Part shown: positions 2,937-15,883 of the stretch, piece by piece
Layout of the letters: each line of letters begins with the position of its first letter
How positions within the stretch are numbered: position 1 is the first letter of the stretch
IMG/VR virus record: IMGVR_UViG_3300013307_000003
Coordinates: 1 to 64,000 of that record
Length of the DNA: 64,000 nucleotides
Reading direction: 5' to 3' (one strand)
Source of the DNA: a virus
Translations under genes and position numbers: made by a program
Notes under the pieces: model-generated
What the model was told of the DNA's origin: nothing
Databases searched by the model: none
The model's input: only the letters and a program-made list of their open reading frames with translations

Positions 2937-3311
2937 TTGGCAAGACTAGCGAGTGATATAGCGGTTGACGAGGCGAACGCAGTGATCCAGATGTGTCAGC
3001 AAATCCTTGAACTTAAGAAGCGAGTGGCGGCGCTCGTGACCGAGAACGGCGTCAGTCCGATTGGGAACCGATGGGCGACGCTTACAACCACAGCGGTTGC
3101 TACAGATGGCGGCCTGGGTACGGTGGACGGCGCTCCGAATGCTGCTCACGTCATTGACCCGCGCGTTTACCCGAACATAACCCGCACCGTCAGCCCGAAC
3201 GACCTGAACAACGCACTGCAAATCCTGGTCGATTTCAACACCTTCAACGCAGGTACACAGGTTAACGCGAATGCCAGTCGTCCCGGCCAACTCTTCAACG
3301 TGGCGCTGTAA
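2937..3311 (+). CDS. Structural protein with N-terminal helix (124 aa)
   Basis: A TTG at 2937 is chosen because AGGAAGGA at 2921-2928 sits 8 bases upstream; the frame also extends to a TTG at 2916, but the ribosome site lies inside that extension. Residues 1-30 form an amphipathic helix (ANAVIQMCQQILELKKRV), and the rest is beta-rich with T, N and V. It lies among fibre and tail genes and resembles a small trimerising fibre-associated protein, but no family is recognised. Confidence 0.7.
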   Translation: MARLASDIAVDEANAVIQMCQQILELKKRVAALVTENGVSPIGNRWATLTTTAVATDGGLGTVDGAPNAAHVIDPRVYPNITRTVSPNDLNNALQILVDFNTFNAGTQVNANASRPGQLFNVAL

Positions 3312-3837: not shown

Positions 3838-4644
3838 ATGCTACGCGGGTCATGGGGCAACCAGAAACCACCGGTCGGGTCCACGCTCAATTACGGGCAT
3901 CCGCTATTTCACCCGAAGGGGTTGTACTGGCTTTTCAACGAAAATGGCGGTCTGCCGTGTGAACTGCGCACTAAAATCCTTACAGTTCAAAACGCAGGCA
4001 CAATGCCGGTATGGGGGCCTGGAAAGAAGCTGTCCGGTCCAGCGTTTTCGTCTGTGTCTACGAGTACGCACCCCGCACTATTGCCCGATACTACACTGCT
4101 ACCAGTCGGCCCTGCTACGTTTTTCATAGGCAGCAGAAAACGGGACACAACCAATCGGACATCGGCAGCATTTGGGAACGGCGGAGGCTCCGGAGGCTCA
4201 ACATTCGAGTGTGACGCTCTCCTGCCATACAGTGACGGAACCGTGTATTGGGATTACGGCGGCAACACTTCGGGAACTACTCGTCTGTCTATTGCGGGTC
4301 TAAGTTTCGGAGACGACATCTGGGCGTTTACGGTCGGCGCTCGCGGGATGGAGATTTGGCAGAACGGCGTTAAGCGCGCAAGCAACGCGGCCACTCCGAC
4401 GAGGACGACCGACAGCAACCCGTTCTGCATCGGCCAAGCGACGGGCGTACTTACCTCCGATCTCGCGGATTACGGCTTTTTATACGTCGTGCCGTTTCAG
4501 GCGACCGGTACCGAAATCATTAACCTGACGAATAGTCCGTTCGCCATAATCGCGCCGCCGCCCGCGACCAAGTTCTACTCGTACGCCACACCCGCAACCG
4601 GCAACCGCCGCCGCCGTATCCTGTGTGCTGGAAGGATGATGTAG
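3838..4644 (+). CDS. LamG-like tail protein (268 aa)
   Basis: Residues about 95-240 show a LamG/concanavalin pattern: an opening ATFFIGSRK strand, a central WDYGG turn, the characteristic WAFTVGARGMEIWQNGVKR strand-turn-strand (the x-x-x-W-x-N-G-V motif), and a final LYVVPF strand. The N-terminal 60 residues are G/P-rich and the C-terminus is basic (NRRRRIL). In phage fibres this fold commonly binds glycans or hydrolysed polysaccharide, so receptor contact is a reasonable inference. It is the second such domain protein in this operon. Confidence 0.75.
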   Translation: MLRGSWGNQKPPVGSTLNYGHPLFHPKGLYWLFNENGGLPCELRTKILTVQNAGTMPVWGPGKKLSGPAFSSVSTSTHPALLPDTTLLPVGPATFFIGSRKRDTTNRTSAAFGNGGGSGGSTFECDALLPYSDGTVYWDYGGNTSGTTRLSIAGLSFGDDIWAFTVGARGMEIWQNGVKRASNAATPTRTTDSNPFCIGQATGVLTSDLADYGFLYVVPFQATGTEIINLTNSPFAIIAPPPATKFYSYATPATGNRRRRILCAGRMM

Positions 4645-4645
4645 G

Positions 4646-6685
4646 ATGCTCTGGGCTAAACTTTCTACTGCCGCAACTATCACCGTCGGCCCGATCCTCG
4701 ACAGCACCGGCGCGGAATACACTGGCGCTGTCATCGGCGACCTCACGCTCCGTAAGCACGACGGCAGCAGCGCGGCTATGGCGAGCGCAGCGACCCTCAC
4801 CCACGTGGATAACGGGCACTATACGCTCGTGACGACGACGGGCAACATGGACACCATCGGACGCCTGCAAATCCGGTGTAACAAATCGACCTACCAGATG
4901 CCGCCGGTCGAGATCATGGTCCTCCCTGCGGCGGTCTATGACACACTGATTACGAACGGCACGCTCGCGAGCACTACGAGCGGCAGGACGATTGCAGTCG
5001 ATAGTAGTGGGATCGGTGACGCGAACATTCAGAAGATACTCGGCACTACCAGTGTCGGCGCAGCAGGCTACGTAGCGCACGATATGGCGCAAGCCGTCCC
5101 GACCAGCCCAACCGCCGGAACCGTCGGCGAAGCGCTCCTGATGATGCTCAACCGCCTCGGCAGGCGCGGAACAGCACAGGCAGGCACCTCGACGACGATC
5201 ACGCTCGACAGCGGCGCTTCTGCCACAGATAACATCTACAGCACGCACAGTATCAAGATCATCAGCGGGACCGGATCGGGGCAGGTCGCGAACATCGCCT
5301 CGTACGTTGGGTCCACGAAGGTCGCGACGATCACACGACCCGGTGGCGGCACTTGGACGACGAACCCGGACAATACCTCTGTGTTTCAGATCGAGGCGGT
5401 TCCGCTGGCGGCGGTCGGCTACATGCTGTTTACGGCACTGACAGAGGGTGCGGCCGGTCGTATCGCAGCGGCTTTCCAGACGATGTTCAACGTCGCCTCC
5501 TCCGTCTTCACGACCGCGAGTGTCAACCAGACGGGCGATAGTTACGCGAGGATCGGAGCACCTGCTGGCGCTTCTGCCTCTGCCGACATCGCATCTATCA
5601 AGACAGACACCGGCACGACGATCCCCGGTCGGCTCCCTGCGGCCCTCGTGAGCGGGCGTATGGATAGCAGCGTGGGCGCGATGGCGGCAAACGTCGTCAC
5701 GGCGGCGGCAATCGCGGATGGGGCCATAGATCGCGCTACGTTCGCCGCTGACACGGGTCTACAGAGCATCAGGTCAAATACCGCACAGGCGGGTGGCAGC
5801 ACGTCGATAACGCTCGACAGCGGCGCAAGCGCATCGAATAGCTTCTACGTGAACTGCCTGATTATCCTGACAGGCGGGACGGGCGCAGGCCAGGCGAGGT
5901 TTATCACCGCTTACGTGGGCAGCACAAAGGTCGCTTCTGTGTCTGCATGGACGACCAACCCGGATAGCAGCACGACGTTTGCGATCATGGGCTTCGATAG
6001 CGTGCCGGGCGCAACGGCTCCGACTACCGCGCAGATTACGGCTGCGATCTTCACCGACTTGATGAACGGGACTGACTTCAACACCGCTGGCAGTTTCGGC
6101 GCACTCGTGAAGGCGAACATCGACGCCGCGACCAGCTCGCGCATGGCGACGTACAGCCAGCCGACCGGGTTCCTCGCTGCGACCTTCCCGGCCGCGATCC
6201 CCGACGCGGCGCACTACACGAACGCACGGGGCGATTTGCTCGCGAACCTCGACGCGACGATCAGCAGCCGCACGAAACCCGCCGACACTCAGGCGCGGGT
6301 CACGCTCGTCGATACCGTAACGACCTATACCGGCAACACTCCTCAGACCGGCGACAACTACGCGCGGCTTGGCGCGCCCGCAGGTGCTTCGATCGCAGCC
6401 GACATTGCGGCCGCAGAAGCGTTCGCCGATCGCGTCGTCGGGCGCGGCACGGTCGGCTCGGCCTCGACGACCACCAGCATTGTCACCAGCGCGATGACGC
6501 CTGCCGGTGTCCACGCCGACCAGTTCAAGGGGCGGATCGTCATCTTCGATCGCACGACCACGACGACCGCTCTGCGCGGGCAGGCAACCGACATCACGGC
6601 CTCTAGCGCGGCTTCTCTGCCGGTCCTGACGGTCACGGCACTAACTGACGCGCCCCAGGCGGGCGACCAATTTTCTATAGTTTGA
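4646..6685 (+). CDS. Large repetitive tail fibre protein (679 aa)
   Basis: Contains two kinds of internal repeat. A unit starting [11 protein letters not shown] recurs (about residues 178-235 and 382-435, both running into AYVGSTKVA-type strands), and a second unit, [14 protein letters not shown] / [14 protein letters not shown], recurs near residues 297 and 570. The N-terminal 90 residues form a beta-rich module. Composition is A/T/S/G/D-rich with few aromatics, as in extended trimeric fibres. The start overlaps nothing, and the 3' end overlaps the antisense HNH gene by 11 bases. Fibre shaft function is inferred. Confidence 0.8.
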
Positions 6686-7331
6686 TGTGTGACCAACCTT
6701 TGCCGCGCAATATCCATGACACGTTGCGTTGGGATGTTCCAACATGATCGCCTATGCGTTGTTGTGTCCATCCCTCGGATCTCAACCTGTGGATAGTACG
6801 CACATCATCTTCGGACAGGGTAAACCGAGAAGCGTTTATGCCTACACCGTGATGACGGGGGAAATCAGGTCGCTGCATTGACATTCTGCCCTTGCTCATG
6901 GCGTCCGCAATATTGTCTTTTTGCGTTCCAACGAAGAGGTGATCCGGGTTAACACAATTACGAACATCGCATTTATGGCACGCTTGTTCACCTAGCAGGA
7001 GTTCTCTCCCGATGGTAATTTCAAGCGCGTATCGGTGTGCACCGTAGTGCTTACCGTGAATAATTAGTCGGGCGTATCCGCGTTCTGTCGGAGTGCCGCA
7101 CCATAACCAACATCCGTTCTCTTGCTTCTGAACAGCGGCAAAAAAACGTTCAGGGGTCCAGGGCACACTGCTTTTTAGCCCCATTGTGGAGCATTGCCAA
7201 GATACAGAACCGGCTGTACGGTTAAGAACTTTCCCTATCTCTGGATGGGATTGTGACATGTAGTTTTCGCGCAGGTAGGCTTTTTATTCGGGTGTCCAAA
7301 TTCGAGGAGCAATACGAGGTAAACTGGGCAT
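6675..7331 (-). pseudogene. HNH homing-endonuclease-like gene with an early nonsense codon
   Basis: The strong ribosome site (AAGGAG) and ATG at 7331 start a frame reading MPSLPRIAPRIWTPE, then TAA at 7284-7286. The same frame continues without further stops to 6675. The intact relative at 15248-15883 aligns across the whole length, with W-S-T-E-E-D-D-Y-L-R where this copy has W-T-P-E-stop-K-A-Y-L-R. An ATG at 7259 leaves a 194-residue remainder with the HNH core ([30 protein letters not shown]) and a C-terminal helix-turn-helix ([23 protein letters not shown]), but that ATG lacks a ribosome site. Inserted antisense between two tail genes, as homing genes often are. Confidence 0.8.
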
Positions 7332-10899: not shown

Positions 10900-11145
10900 A
10901 TGATCAGCGAGATTACGGCTCGTGCGCTTACGCTTTCGACGGGCAAGCGTCTGGAATTGACGGAGGCTGAGCACGAAGAGCTTGAGACATGGTTCTGCGA
11001 GGCGAACGCCCTGCCTCTGCGCACGGCGAACCCACCACCGATTTACCTGACACAGACGCCAAGCGTGCCGCCCGAGATGAGCGAGCCGGTAGTGAATAGC
11101 GGACTGGTGACGACGGACCCTCCTCCGGGCGGGGAGGCGGCATGA
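10900..11145 (+). CDS. Small helical protein with proline-rich tail (81 aa)
   Basis: ATG at 10900 chosen because GAAAGG is 9 bases upstream; the frame is open further upstream to a GTG-type start inside the previous gene. Residues 1-45 are helical (LTEAEHEELETWFCEANAL), then a P/T-rich tail (TANPPPIYLTQTP and VTTDPPPGGEAA). It overlaps the following membrane protein by ATGA. Unknown. Confidence 0.65.
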   Translation: MISEITARALTLSTGKRLELTEAEHEELETWFCEANALPLRTANPPPIYLTQTPSVPPEMSEPVVNSGLVTTDPPPGGEAA

Positions 11146-11372
11146 GCAAGATAAATCCTATCATCTGGGCAATCATCGTCGCGATGCTAGCAGAGGTGGC
11201 TCTGACGCTGGCGAAATTGCCGGTACCTGCCATCATAGACCATGCCCTTTTCGTGTTTATTGGCGTGCTGGTGCCGTATGAGCGGTTCTTGCCCAACCAG
11301 ACCACGAGTGTAAGCAGCATAAGCACGGTTACACCGCCGCCTGCTGATCCATCCGGGCCGCCTGCGATATAA
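11142..11372 (+). CDS. Small membrane protein, holin candidate (76 aa)
   Basis: Two hydrophobic segments (about 6-25, IIWAIIVAMLAEVALTL, and 33-48, ALFVFIGVLVPY) and a T/S/P-rich cytoplasmic-type tail. It overlaps the upstream gene by 4 bases (ATGA). This is the last gene before a 390-base noncoding stretch, and its end overlaps a TATAAT box. A second small membrane protein besides the one at 9738 suggests a holin/antiholin pair, which is inference. Confidence 0.7.
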   Translation: MSKINPIIWAIIVAMLAEVALTLAKLPVPAIIDHALFVFIGVLVPYERFLPNQTTSVSSISTVTPPPADPSGPPAI

Positions 11373-11373
11373 T
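11344..11373 (+). promoter_or_regulatory. Promoter for the noncoding RNA
   Basis: A perfect TATAAT at 11368-11373 overlaps the stop of the preceding gene. The -35 region is weak (CTGATC at 11344-11349, spacing 18). In GC-rich surroundings an exact -10 followed 6-7 bases later by a strong 5' hairpin is suggestive of a start near 11380. Confidence 0.5.
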
Positions 11374-11379
11374 AGAAGT

Positions 11380-11690
11380 CCGGGTACGCAACCAAGTGGT
11401 ACCGGGACGCGGCCCACTCTAAAAACCGTCCCACCGATTTACCGATTTGATCCTGCGGCGGCGTGGAGGGACAACGAAGGTTGGCTCCCTTAATCGACAC
11501 GCTCAAGTAAAGCCTGGTGTTCCCTACCGTTGGTGATTAGACTATAAGCCGACGGGGTTTGCAGTCGTTCCGCAAGATCGATGAACACAAGCCGGAGTAG
11601 CGACCGGCCCGCAGATCAAAACCACAGTGGGTCTGGTAATTCACCGGGTCGGCGCGCCGCTTCTGAACAAGGACCGGCGCGCTTTTAGTT
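11380..11690 (+). ncRNA. Candidate structured noncoding RNA (about 310 nt)
   Basis: No reading frame of note occupies 11373-11764. The predicted transcript opens with a hairpin, GTCCGGGTAC / GTACCGGGAC (11379-11409, 10-bp stem with one mismatch). A GCCGG/CCGGC hairpin lies near 11591, and the transcript ends in a GC-rich terminator at 11652-11690. It does not fold as a tRNA by eye. The role is unknown; its position between lysis-type membrane genes and the endolysin operon suggests a regulator or a processed leader. Confidence 0.5.
11651..11690 (+). terminator. Intrinsic terminator
   Basis: Perfect 8-bp GC stem GCGCGCCG (11652-11659) / CGGCGCGC (11675-11682) with a 15-base loop, followed directly by TTTTAGTTT. 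It separates the noncoding RNA from the endolysin operon. Confidence 0.7.
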
Positions 11691-11724
11691 TGTCACCGGA
11701 GAACCGCATGAAACCGCGATTTAC

Positions 11725-11758
11725 CTTCCTGTAGTGCTGTCTTAGCACTTACAGGAGG
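11725..11758 (+). promoter_or_regulatory. Hairpin that sequesters a Shine-Dalgarno site
   Basis: CTTCCTGTAGTGCT (11725-11738) pairs with AGCACT-T-ACAGGAGG (11744-11758) around a GTCTT loop, with one bulged T and one G-U pair. The 3' arm contains the complete AGGAGG (11753-11758) used by the GTG at 11765, so the ribosome site is hidden in the stem. This would keep the lysis operon translationally off until the stem is opened. Confidence 0.65.
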
Positions 11759-11764
11759 AGACGA

Positions 11765-12199
11765 GTGAGAACAAGAGACTGGCGGCGGGCGCAGCGTGAG
11801 AAGCGCACGAAGGCCGCCTACAACCGCGCCGTGGATGATTTCAACGACGACCAGGTTGCGCGCAGCATGTTCCCTCGCTATCGCGGGGCGCGCTGGCAGG
11901 ACACGCTTCGTTCGTTCATGAGGAACGAGGGGCGCAATTGGAATTGCGATCGCTTGCGTTGGCGCGAATGCGGGAAGTGTTCACACATTATCGGCCATTG
12001 CGAATGCCACGGATGGAACACGCGCCGCCGAAATGAGGCGATGGCTTACGATCTGCGCGGCACGCCGTGGGAGCACGATCCGCCGCTGAACGAGGAACCG
12101 CCGTTCGGCTATCACGAGGCCGAAACCGAATACGTACCCGACGTTCCGCTACTCAAACGGGTGGCGGATTTTTCTTTGTCTGGAGTTTTATCGCCATGA
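11765..12199 (+). CDS. Basic protein with cysteine cluster (144 aa)
   Basis: GTG start with AGGAGG 6 bases upstream, that site being part of a hairpin. The N-terminus is strongly basic (MRTRDWRRAQREKRTKAAY). A putative zinc site, C-G-K-C-x5-H-C-E-C-H, lies near residues 69-82; the C-terminal half is acidic and P-rich. It overlaps the next gene (ATGA). It looks like a small nucleic-acid or regulator protein, but is unrecognised. First gene of the endolysin operon. Confidence 0.7.
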   Translation: MRTRDWRRAQREKRTKAAYNRAVDDFNDDQVARSMFPRYRGARWQDTLRSFMRNEGRNWNCDRLRWRECGKCSHIIGHCECHGWNTRRRNEAMAYDLRGTPWEHDPPLNEEPPFGYHEAETEYVPDVPLLKRVADFSLSGVLSP

Positions 12200-12402
12200 G
12201 CATCGACACCACAACCCGCCAAGATCAATGGCGCGGCGAGAAGCGTGTCATCCTCCGACTGCGTTCTCCTTTCACGCCTATCGGCTTCATCTCGATCCCG
12301 TACAACGTCGCTGATGAGATGCGCAAGCGCGAGAACATCCTGCACAATCGGGGGCCGGTGAGAGTGGATACGACGGGCAAGGATTGGAGTGCGATAAGAT
12401 GA
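12196..12402 (+). CDS. Small protein of unknown function (68 aa)
   Basis: ATGA overlap with both neighbours (12196-12199 and 12399-12402), so it is translationally coupled within the endolysin operon. Sequence mixes basic strands (KRVILRLRSPFTPIGFISIPY) with a helical middle. No motif recognised. Confidence 0.7.
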   Translation: MSIDTTTRQDQWRGEKRVILRLRSPFTPIGFISIPYNVADEMRKRENILHNRGPVRVDTTGKDWSAIR

Positions 12403-13001
12403 GCACATCACACGGCCTTGATACAACTCAAGATTGCACGCCTCATATTCCAGCGATCAAGGCGGCAGGCATCTCCTTCGTGTGCAGGTACGCCTCCCAC
12501 AGTGCGTGGAAGAACATGACACCGGAGGAAGTGCGGGCACTTTCGAAGGCGGGTATCTACATCTGCACCGTGTGGGAGATAGGCGACCAGGAAAGCTACT
12601 TCACGCGGGCGCAGGGACTAATGGACGGAGCAGGTTCATTCGCTTTTTGCCAACATCTAGGACAGCCGTTCAACTCACCGATTTACTACGCGGTCGATCT
12701 CGACATCAACCCGACCAAAGTAGTCCAGTATTTTCAGGCAGTCCGAGAGAGCCTTCAGCGGCACGGTCAAATCGGTAAGACGACGTACGAGGTCGGTGTG
12801 TACGGACCCGGCGCAGTCTGCAAGTTCCTGCACGATGCAGGGTTAGTTTCGTTCACATGGATAGACCAATCACCGGGACACAGCGGGGCCGACTATGCCG
12901 ATTGGAACCTCAAGCAACTCCCGTCGGCCACAATCGCGGGCATGAATGCGGACGGTGATGTCAGCCGTGGCAACGGCGGCGGATGGATGGTGAAGGCATG
13001 A
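12399..13001 (+). CDS. Endolysin, DUF1906 glycoside hydrolase-like (200 aa)
   Basis: ATG at 12399 overlaps the upstream stop (ATGA). The whole protein matches the DUF1906/Rv2525c-like TIM-barrel domain used by many phage lysins: GLDTTQD at the first strand, AGISFVCRYAS, a YICTVWEIG strand with acidic Glu, PIYYAVDLDI with the Asp pair, YEVGVYGPGAVC and TWIDQS near the end. The family is thought to cleave peptidoglycan glycan chains. No signal peptide, so release through a holin is expected. No separate wall-binding domain is visible. Confidence 0.8.
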   Translation: MSTSHGLDTTQDCTPHIPAIKAAGISFVCRYASHSAWKNMTPEEVRALSKAGIYICTVWEIGDQESYFTRAQGLMDGAGSFAFCQHLGQPFNSPIYYAVDLDINPTKVVQYFQAVRESLQRHGQIGKTTYEVGVYGPGAVCKFLHDAGLVSFTWIDQSPGHSGADYADWNLKQLPSATIAGMNADGDVSRGNGGGWMVKA

Positions 13002-15045: not shown

Positions 15046-15264
15046 TTACTTGTTCTCCCCCACACATTCCTGACATCCCCTGCGCCTGTGCCGTATACAC
15101 TCGCCGACGTTTGGGAGCACCCTGATCTCTGAACCGAAAAGTGGAACGAATGACCTCGGCTTCCTCCGCTCCCGCTCTAGCCCCATGCACAATTTGCAAT
15201 CTGTGGACCACGGTTCAGCGTGCCGGAGTTTGCAAAGACTACATAATCTAATTGTTTTGGCCAT
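15046..15264 (-). CDS. Small zinc-finger protein (72 aa)
   Basis: ATG at 15264. Two CxxC-type clusters (LCSLCKLRH near residues 8-15 and DCKLCMG near 22-28) plus a late cysteine pair suggest a treble-clef or ribbon zinc site. The middle is R/K-rich. It overlaps the end of the HNH gene by 17 bases and abuts the next gene. Nucleic-acid binding inferred. Confidence 0.65.
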   Translation of the reverse strand: MAKTIRLCSLCKLRHAEPWSTDCKLCMGLERERRKPRSFVPLFGSEIRVLPNVGECIRHRRRGCQECVGENK

Positions 15265-15883
15265 GTTTTTTTCGCGCATCCTGTGCCTGCTGCCGAATCG
15301 TAGTGCATTTCCTGCACACGCGTCCAGTAGTGTTTTTTAGCTGACGGATGTAAGTGTTTTCGGGAGAGAACTCGTGACCACGGATGCAATGTGTTTTGAG
15401 ACGATTGTTGTAAGAAGGTGTGCCCGGAGTCACAAATGTATGCTCGGAGTGCGTTAAGTCCTCAAGATGGTCAGGATTGACACAAAGCTTGTTATGGCAA
15501 ATGTGGTGTAAGACTTCCTTTGTCACCACGCGGCCAAAAACAACCGTATAGCTGTATTTGTGAGTGCGCAAGTTTTTTCCGTTGTGATGTATCACGCCGT
15601 ACCCAGAGCCGTCGCTCTTGCCGGGCCAAATCCAGCACCCGTCTTCTTGCACTTTCAGTACTGATAAGAACTTTTGCGGGGACCACTTTCGCACGTGCCA
15701 TCGAATTTTTCTTATCCGTAAACGATTCGCCCGTGTTTCAACGGACGAACTGCTGCGGTTGAGCGCTTCCGCGATTTGTGAGATCGGCACCGATGGGTAA
15801 AACTCACGCAGGTAATCGTCTTCTTCTGTAGACCAAGGGGTATAATTCGCGGCAGCACCGCTTAAACGGGGTAAACTAGTCAT
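15248..15883 (-). CDS. HNH homing endonuclease with SANT-like N-terminus (211 aa)
   Basis: Residues 1-58 form a Myb/SANT-like tri-helix (YTPWSTEEDDYLREFYPS and SQIAEALNRSSSSVETRANRL) for DNA binding. Residues 67-130 are an HNH_3-type core (DGCWIWPGK, RTHKYSY, LHHICHNKLCVNPDHLE). The C-terminus has an H-C-x-R-G-H-E-F-x4-T and C-x2-C zinc module. AAGGAGAT precedes the ATG. It is the intact relative of the interrupted gene at 6675-7331 and shares its promoter-leader. Such free-standing endonucleases drive their own insertion; here it disrupts no visible gene. Confidence 0.85.
   Translation of the reverse strand: MTSLPRLSGAAANYTPWSTEEDDYLREFYPSVPISQIAEALNRSSSSVETRANRLRIRKIRWHVRKWSPQKFLSVLKVQEDGCWIWPGKSDGSGYGVIHHNGKNLRTHKYSYTVVFGRVVTKEVLHHICHNKLCVNPDHLEDLTHSEHTFVTPGTPSYNNRLKTHCIRGHEFSPENTYIRQLKNTTGRVCRKCTTIRQQAQDARKKHGQNN

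Follow-up and report, generated by a model that had tools for sequence, protein, structure and literature searches.

In the late leader of phage lambda (pR'-6S-tR'), a promoter is followed by a noncoding leader, a terminator and the lysis genes, in that order. The late leader of Stx phages yields a small RNA, StxS, and sRNA dyads are commonly found between the late promoter and the lysis genes (PMC7873438). A further way in which a leader can act is known from HK022, where the nascent put RNA alone carries the polymerase past terminators (PMC9378689). Outside the lambdoids, RNA control of lysis is hardly known, and the structured RNAs of uncultured phages have been little catalogued. The locus described here is a compact unit made up of an RNA core, a terminator, a leader peptide, a hidden ribosome site and lysis genes.

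A noncoding gap before the lysis genes

The window, that is, the whole stretch of 64,000 nucleotides that was analysed, belongs to a virus record of 72.5 kb whose source is an uncultured, soil-type tailed phage. Coordinates given below for the window refer to features on the + strand unless stated otherwise. A preliminary description of this DNA had placed a candidate noncoding RNA of about 310 nt, with its own promoter and terminator, in a 392-base gap just before the endolysin genes. The length of the gap was verified (11373-11764). It contains no coding frame and separates a small, holin-like membrane ORF (11142-11372, TAA stop at 11370-11372) from an ORF of 144 amino acids that starts with GTG (11765-12199), is 93% identical in the relative described below and has no Pfam or PHROG match. 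A lysis module does lie downstream, but the endolysin itself (12399-13001; Pfam Rv2525c_GlyHyd-like, 1.2e-26; PHROG 13480, lysis) does not immediately adjoin the gap. Elsewhere in the window, two ORFs resembling free-standing HNH homing endonucleases (6675-7259 and 15248-15883) are found on the minus strand, opposite to the late genes.

All the signals listed in the preliminary description could be confirmed. The TATAAT hexamer (11368-11373), a candidate -10 element, overlaps the TAA of the preceding ORF; several internal dyads are present in the gap; and the GC-rich terminator corresponds to a hairpin of 13 pairs with one mismatch (11651-11683, -22.4 kcal/mol) followed by TTTTAG. The hairpin at the predicted 5' end of the transcript is also real (11378-11408, -14.8 kcal/mol), but it is interrupted (4+5+2 pairs). 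None of these features is strong alone, and a fold of all 325 nt beats chance by no more than a modest margin (z -1.9).

A covarying RNA core in two related phages

Protein-guided scans of IMG/VR with the 144-residue ORF and the endolysin yielded one relative, IMGVR_UViG_3300009093_000056 (L001). From 11696 onward, in the flanking lysis module, its identity to the window is 94%, a likeness that does not extend into the gap. The L001 region matching the gap contains two diverged tandem copies of the RNA, LA (4293-4475) and LB (4694-4850), separated by an ORF of 48 amino acids with a single membrane span (4476-4622) that is absent from the window. L001 thus carries one copy per successive gene, LA before the 48-residue membrane ORF and LB before the terminator and the lysis genes, and the rule of one copy per following gene holds in both phages. 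In another gap 5' of the L001 lysis module, a strong terminator-like hairpin (AGCCCGCA..TGCGGGCT TTT, 3125-3155) has no counterpart in the window.

The conserved structured core of about 185 nt (11441-11624) is predicted to fold as a four-way junction of P2, the P3 domain and P5, closed by a long helix, P1, of 11-12 pairs. The 5' strand of P1 (TTTGATCCTGCGG, 11446-11458), conserved in the window, LA and LB, pairs with a 3' strand (CCGCAGATCAAA, 11609-11620) that is followed by an invariant ACCA. In LA, this 3' strand holds the AGGA ribosome site of the 48-residue ORF, eight bases 5' of its ATG. P2 (GGCGTG/CACGCT, 11460-11503) has a 25-nt insertion relative to LB and shows two compensating changes, a double one and a single one. 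Between P2 and P3 lies J2/3 (11504-11516), which reads as a conserved single strand (CAAGTAAAGCCTG) in the alignment of the window with LB; here the strand CAAGYAAAGCCTG is conserved though unpaired. The P3 domain (11517-11588), supported by covariation in the same alignment, includes P3 itself (GTGTTC/GAACAC, 11517-11522 with 11583-11588), in which four of the five modelled pairs differ in both partners and still pair, P4 (11527-11555), with two such changes among six pairs, and P4b (TTTGC..GCAAG, 11558-11576). P5 (GCCGG..CCGGC, 11591-11608) abuts P1; its stem is identical in all three copies and its loop varies. P1 and P5 hardly vary and hence lend no covariation support.

Two known types of RNA were considered and rejected. 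The ACCA end and the position of P5 against P1 brought tRNA or tmRNA to mind, but ARAGORN found 0 genes, P1 is 11-12 pairs long and P5 does not end in a T loop. A group I or II intron was discarded on the absence of any Rfam intron match.

The evidence for the fold comes mainly from the alignment of the window with LB (77% identity), from which LA was left out. A structure read by hand on this alignment comprises 32 pairs, and 100% of its cells pair: in seven pairs both partners have changed with no loss of pairing, in two one partner has changed, and none is broken. P3, for example, reads GTGTT/AACAC in one copy and ACAGT/ACTGT in the other. When, as a control, the partner was slid by one to three columns, pairing dropped to 32-46%, with 0-1 double changes. 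Because the hand structure came from the same two sequences, a free prediction was also run. RNAalifold gave -34.8 kcal/mol, against -16.3 +/- 3.7 in 500 column shuffles preserving gaps and conservation (z = -5.0, 0/500 as low), and recovered P1, P2, P3, P4 and P4b. Finally, a covariance model (R1) built from the window and LB recovered the held-out LA at E 1.2e-14 by matching P1, P2 and the region of P5, with 54.5 bits (the window scores 218.6 bits and LB 176 bits). Folded singly, both L001 copies beat their shuffles (z -3.2 and -2.8).

The interior of LA is longer than, and unrelated to, that of the window and LB, and therefore the three copies share only P1, P2 and P5. From P5 to the ACCA, the window and LA agree at 36 of 37 aligned positions, and one G is deleted; the interior of the window copy resembles that of LB. 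This mixed likeness suggests that the single window copy may have arisen by recombination between two copies.

The covariation, the recovery of a held-out copy, the presence of dissimilar terminators at one place (see below) and the absence of a reading frame common to the copies bear out the earlier proposal of a noncoding, structured RNA. That description had named loss of the dyads in relatives as an observation that would speak against it. In L001, P2, P3 and P4 are kept, but the 5' hairpin falls outside the conserved core. What began as a guess from one sequence now has the support of covariation in an independent relative, and it is this comparison with the sister phage that carries conviction. 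We are highly confident that a conserved structured RNA exists, although the known copies number only three, in two related phages.

The opposite view, that these are chance dyads in a gap left unused after gene loss, could draw on the window copy alone, whose fold is just slightly better than chance (z -1.8), and on the extra ORFs that the sister phage has here. It does not accommodate seven compensated pairs with none broken, the alignment z of -5.0 or a terminator that was replaced; it is strongly disfavoured, and we give it the lowest probability of all the readings considered. Very improbable, too, is a mobile, MITE-like repeat in which the arms of P1 would be terminal inverted repeats. 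The perfect inverted ends and the two copies at one L001 locus fit such an element, but neither record holds any more copies, the place is the same in both phages, and we found neither target-site duplications nor copies at unrelated places. Besides, the similarity runs beyond the arms (ACCGATTTG, ACCA), and inverted ends alone leave the covariation of P3 and P4 unexplained.

To the extent of our searches, the family has no other members. Rfam 15 gave no match in the window at the gathering threshold, none in 11373-11764 at E<=10, and none for the L001 copies. DNA patterns for the P1/P5 end, the J2/3-P4b core and the P1/P2 end matched only the sister contig in IMG/VR, the other loci being chance matches, and two DNA patterns run on GTDB genomes hit chance loci and no further member. 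R1 found nothing in nine records of cousin phages (reached via capsid and terminase, and mostly fragments), and a BLAST search of GenBank phages at the DNA level added no member. In 396, 297 and 299 genomes from three phyla, R1 produced one weak match, which was rejected because it lies inside a TPR protein gene. Given the lack of an Rfam match and of further members in IMG/VR, GTDB and GenBank phages, this is very probably a new, narrowly distributed phage RNA, previously uncatalogued, where "narrow" reaches only as far as the tools do, since exact-pattern scans miss diverged copies.

Predicted transcript ends and the downstream leader ORF

LA also has an upstream TATAAT, at L001 4264, 29 nt 5' of the RNA, and it is the only one on the + strand of the 9.4-kb locus. 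In the window, the + strand has six TATAAT against 3.1 expected, so that the hexamer alone is weak evidence. No -35 better than 3/6 was found at 16-18 nt spacing from the window TATAAT, no convincing -35 accompanies either hexamer, and a consensus scan for promoters and terminators picked out neither of these signals in the gap. The 5' hairpin has no counterpart upstream of LA or LB. At the other end, the intrinsic-terminator-like hairpin with its TTTT (11651-11686) has arms GCGCGCCG...CGGCGCGC, and the terminator of LB (GCCTCCG...CGGAGGC TTTT, L001 4861-4890) is unrelated to it in sequence and occupies the same place. This shows that the terminator was replaced yet retained between the two phages. 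A terminator hairpin plus TTTT, as expected at an sRNA 3' end, is present in both the window and LB. A discrete transcript of about 310 nt with its own promoter is a plausible prediction, which the lack of a good -35 at either hexamer leaves unproven.

Such a transcript might be a trans-acting sRNA that, like StxS and further sRNAs from the late regions of lambdoid phages, acts on other mRNAs, a host protein or a defence system. Its promoter-like and terminator-like ends and its strongly folded core would suit this role, and Stx phages do make an sRNA between pR' and tR' (PMC7873438). On the other hand, antisense matches within the window are no longer than in shuffles, the conserved bases are paired or in the junction rather than in an exposed seed, and the copies directly precede lysis-module genes. 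We regard this reading as somewhat unlikely, and rank it second among those considered. Lower still do we place processive antitermination of the put/EAR kind, in which the nascent RNA would bind RNA polymerase so that the terminator is read through. The structured RNA lies just 3' of the promoter and 26 nt 5' of the terminator, and the put RNAs of HK022 antiterminate without a phage protein (PMC9378689); but the size of the element far exceeds that of two stem-loops, no terminator follows closely on LA, and an Rfam scan, by which similarity to put was gauged, gave no match.

Beyond the terminator, an eight-codon ORF (11708-11734) would encode MKPRFTFL, or MPPRFTFL in L001, with start, stop and GGAG kept. 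The second codon, the spacer, the stop codon and the hairpin arm differ between the two phages, and the hairpin persists (11725-11758; z -4.4 in the window and -5.2 in L001). The stop codon of the small ORF sits in the 5' arm of this hairpin, which is predicted to bury the Shine-Dalgarno of the ORF at 11765-12199. The stretch 11708-11758 is thus likely to be a translational attenuation or coupling device, as judged from its sequence.

Switching within the core itself was also considered. The GYAAA of J2/3 may possibly pair, alternatively, with the TTTGC of P4b (11558-11562), as a switch or a pseudoknot. Together with a junction core that contains the conserved single strand CAAGYAAAGCCTG, and with the Shine-Dalgarno held by the P1 3' strand in LA, this possible pairing would agree with a ligand-sensing riboswitch before the lysis genes. 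Nevertheless, there is no Rfam riboswitch match even at E 10, no mutually exclusive terminator fold was found and the distribution is very narrow, which makes a riboswitch quite improbable. Since we saw no alternative fold breaking the terminator, no switch is demonstrated, and this counts against a simple attenuator.

A putative role in lysis and its relation to known systems

The reading we favour is a cis-acting leader RNA controlling the lysis genes, arranged like lambda pR'-6S-tR', to which we assign a probability of roughly 45%; a free sRNA is no more likely than a leader acting in cis. Control in cis is favoured because, in both phages, a lysis-module gene unit directly follows each copy, as would be expected of a cis-acting control element. 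According to this model, transcription of the RNA would start from the -10-type promoter where the holin-like gene ends and stop at the intrinsic terminator just 5' of the lysis genes, and the RNA would work chiefly as a cis-acting leader. Transcription that is early or unlicensed would halt at the terminator and free the RNA of about 310 nt, while a modified RNA polymerase, or read-in from the tail operon, would pass it and express the endolysin operon. The small leader ORF and the hairpin burying the Shine-Dalgarno may then serve as a second gate that times translation of the first gene. A bolder version, which we consider unlikely, is that of a new class of cis-acting RNA gating lysis, in which a polymerase-modifying or ligand-sensing junction would stand once before each lysis-module gene and be followed by a leader-peptide gate, so that lysis would be timed by RNA and not by a protein antiterminator.

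With the lambda pR'-6S-tR' and StxS regions the locus shares a promoter, a few hundred noncoding bases, an intrinsic terminator and lysis genes, and the fact that a 6S-type leader can be a stable sRNA was counted as a likeness to the phage RNA described here. Unlike in lambda, the promoter here is inside a tail-to-lysis operon and the folded core, which covaries, is of greater size; as far as compared, the two are not homologous. In HK022 putL and putR, too, a structured nascent RNA stands between a phage promoter and terminators, but put consists of two stem-loops, whereas here a four-way junction of about 185 nt is predicted. Like the structured RNAs found by comparative genomics, phage-borne ones included (PMC2864571, PMC8040213), the element is intergenic, was found by covariation and has no assigned function; it differs from them in having no Rfam match and three copies only. 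Lastly, the stretch 11708-11758, and this stretch only, resembles the cat/erm-type leaders in that a tiny ORF ends in the arm of a hairpin burying the next Shine-Dalgarno, but it has no link to a drug, and its predicted control is over a gene of the lysis module.
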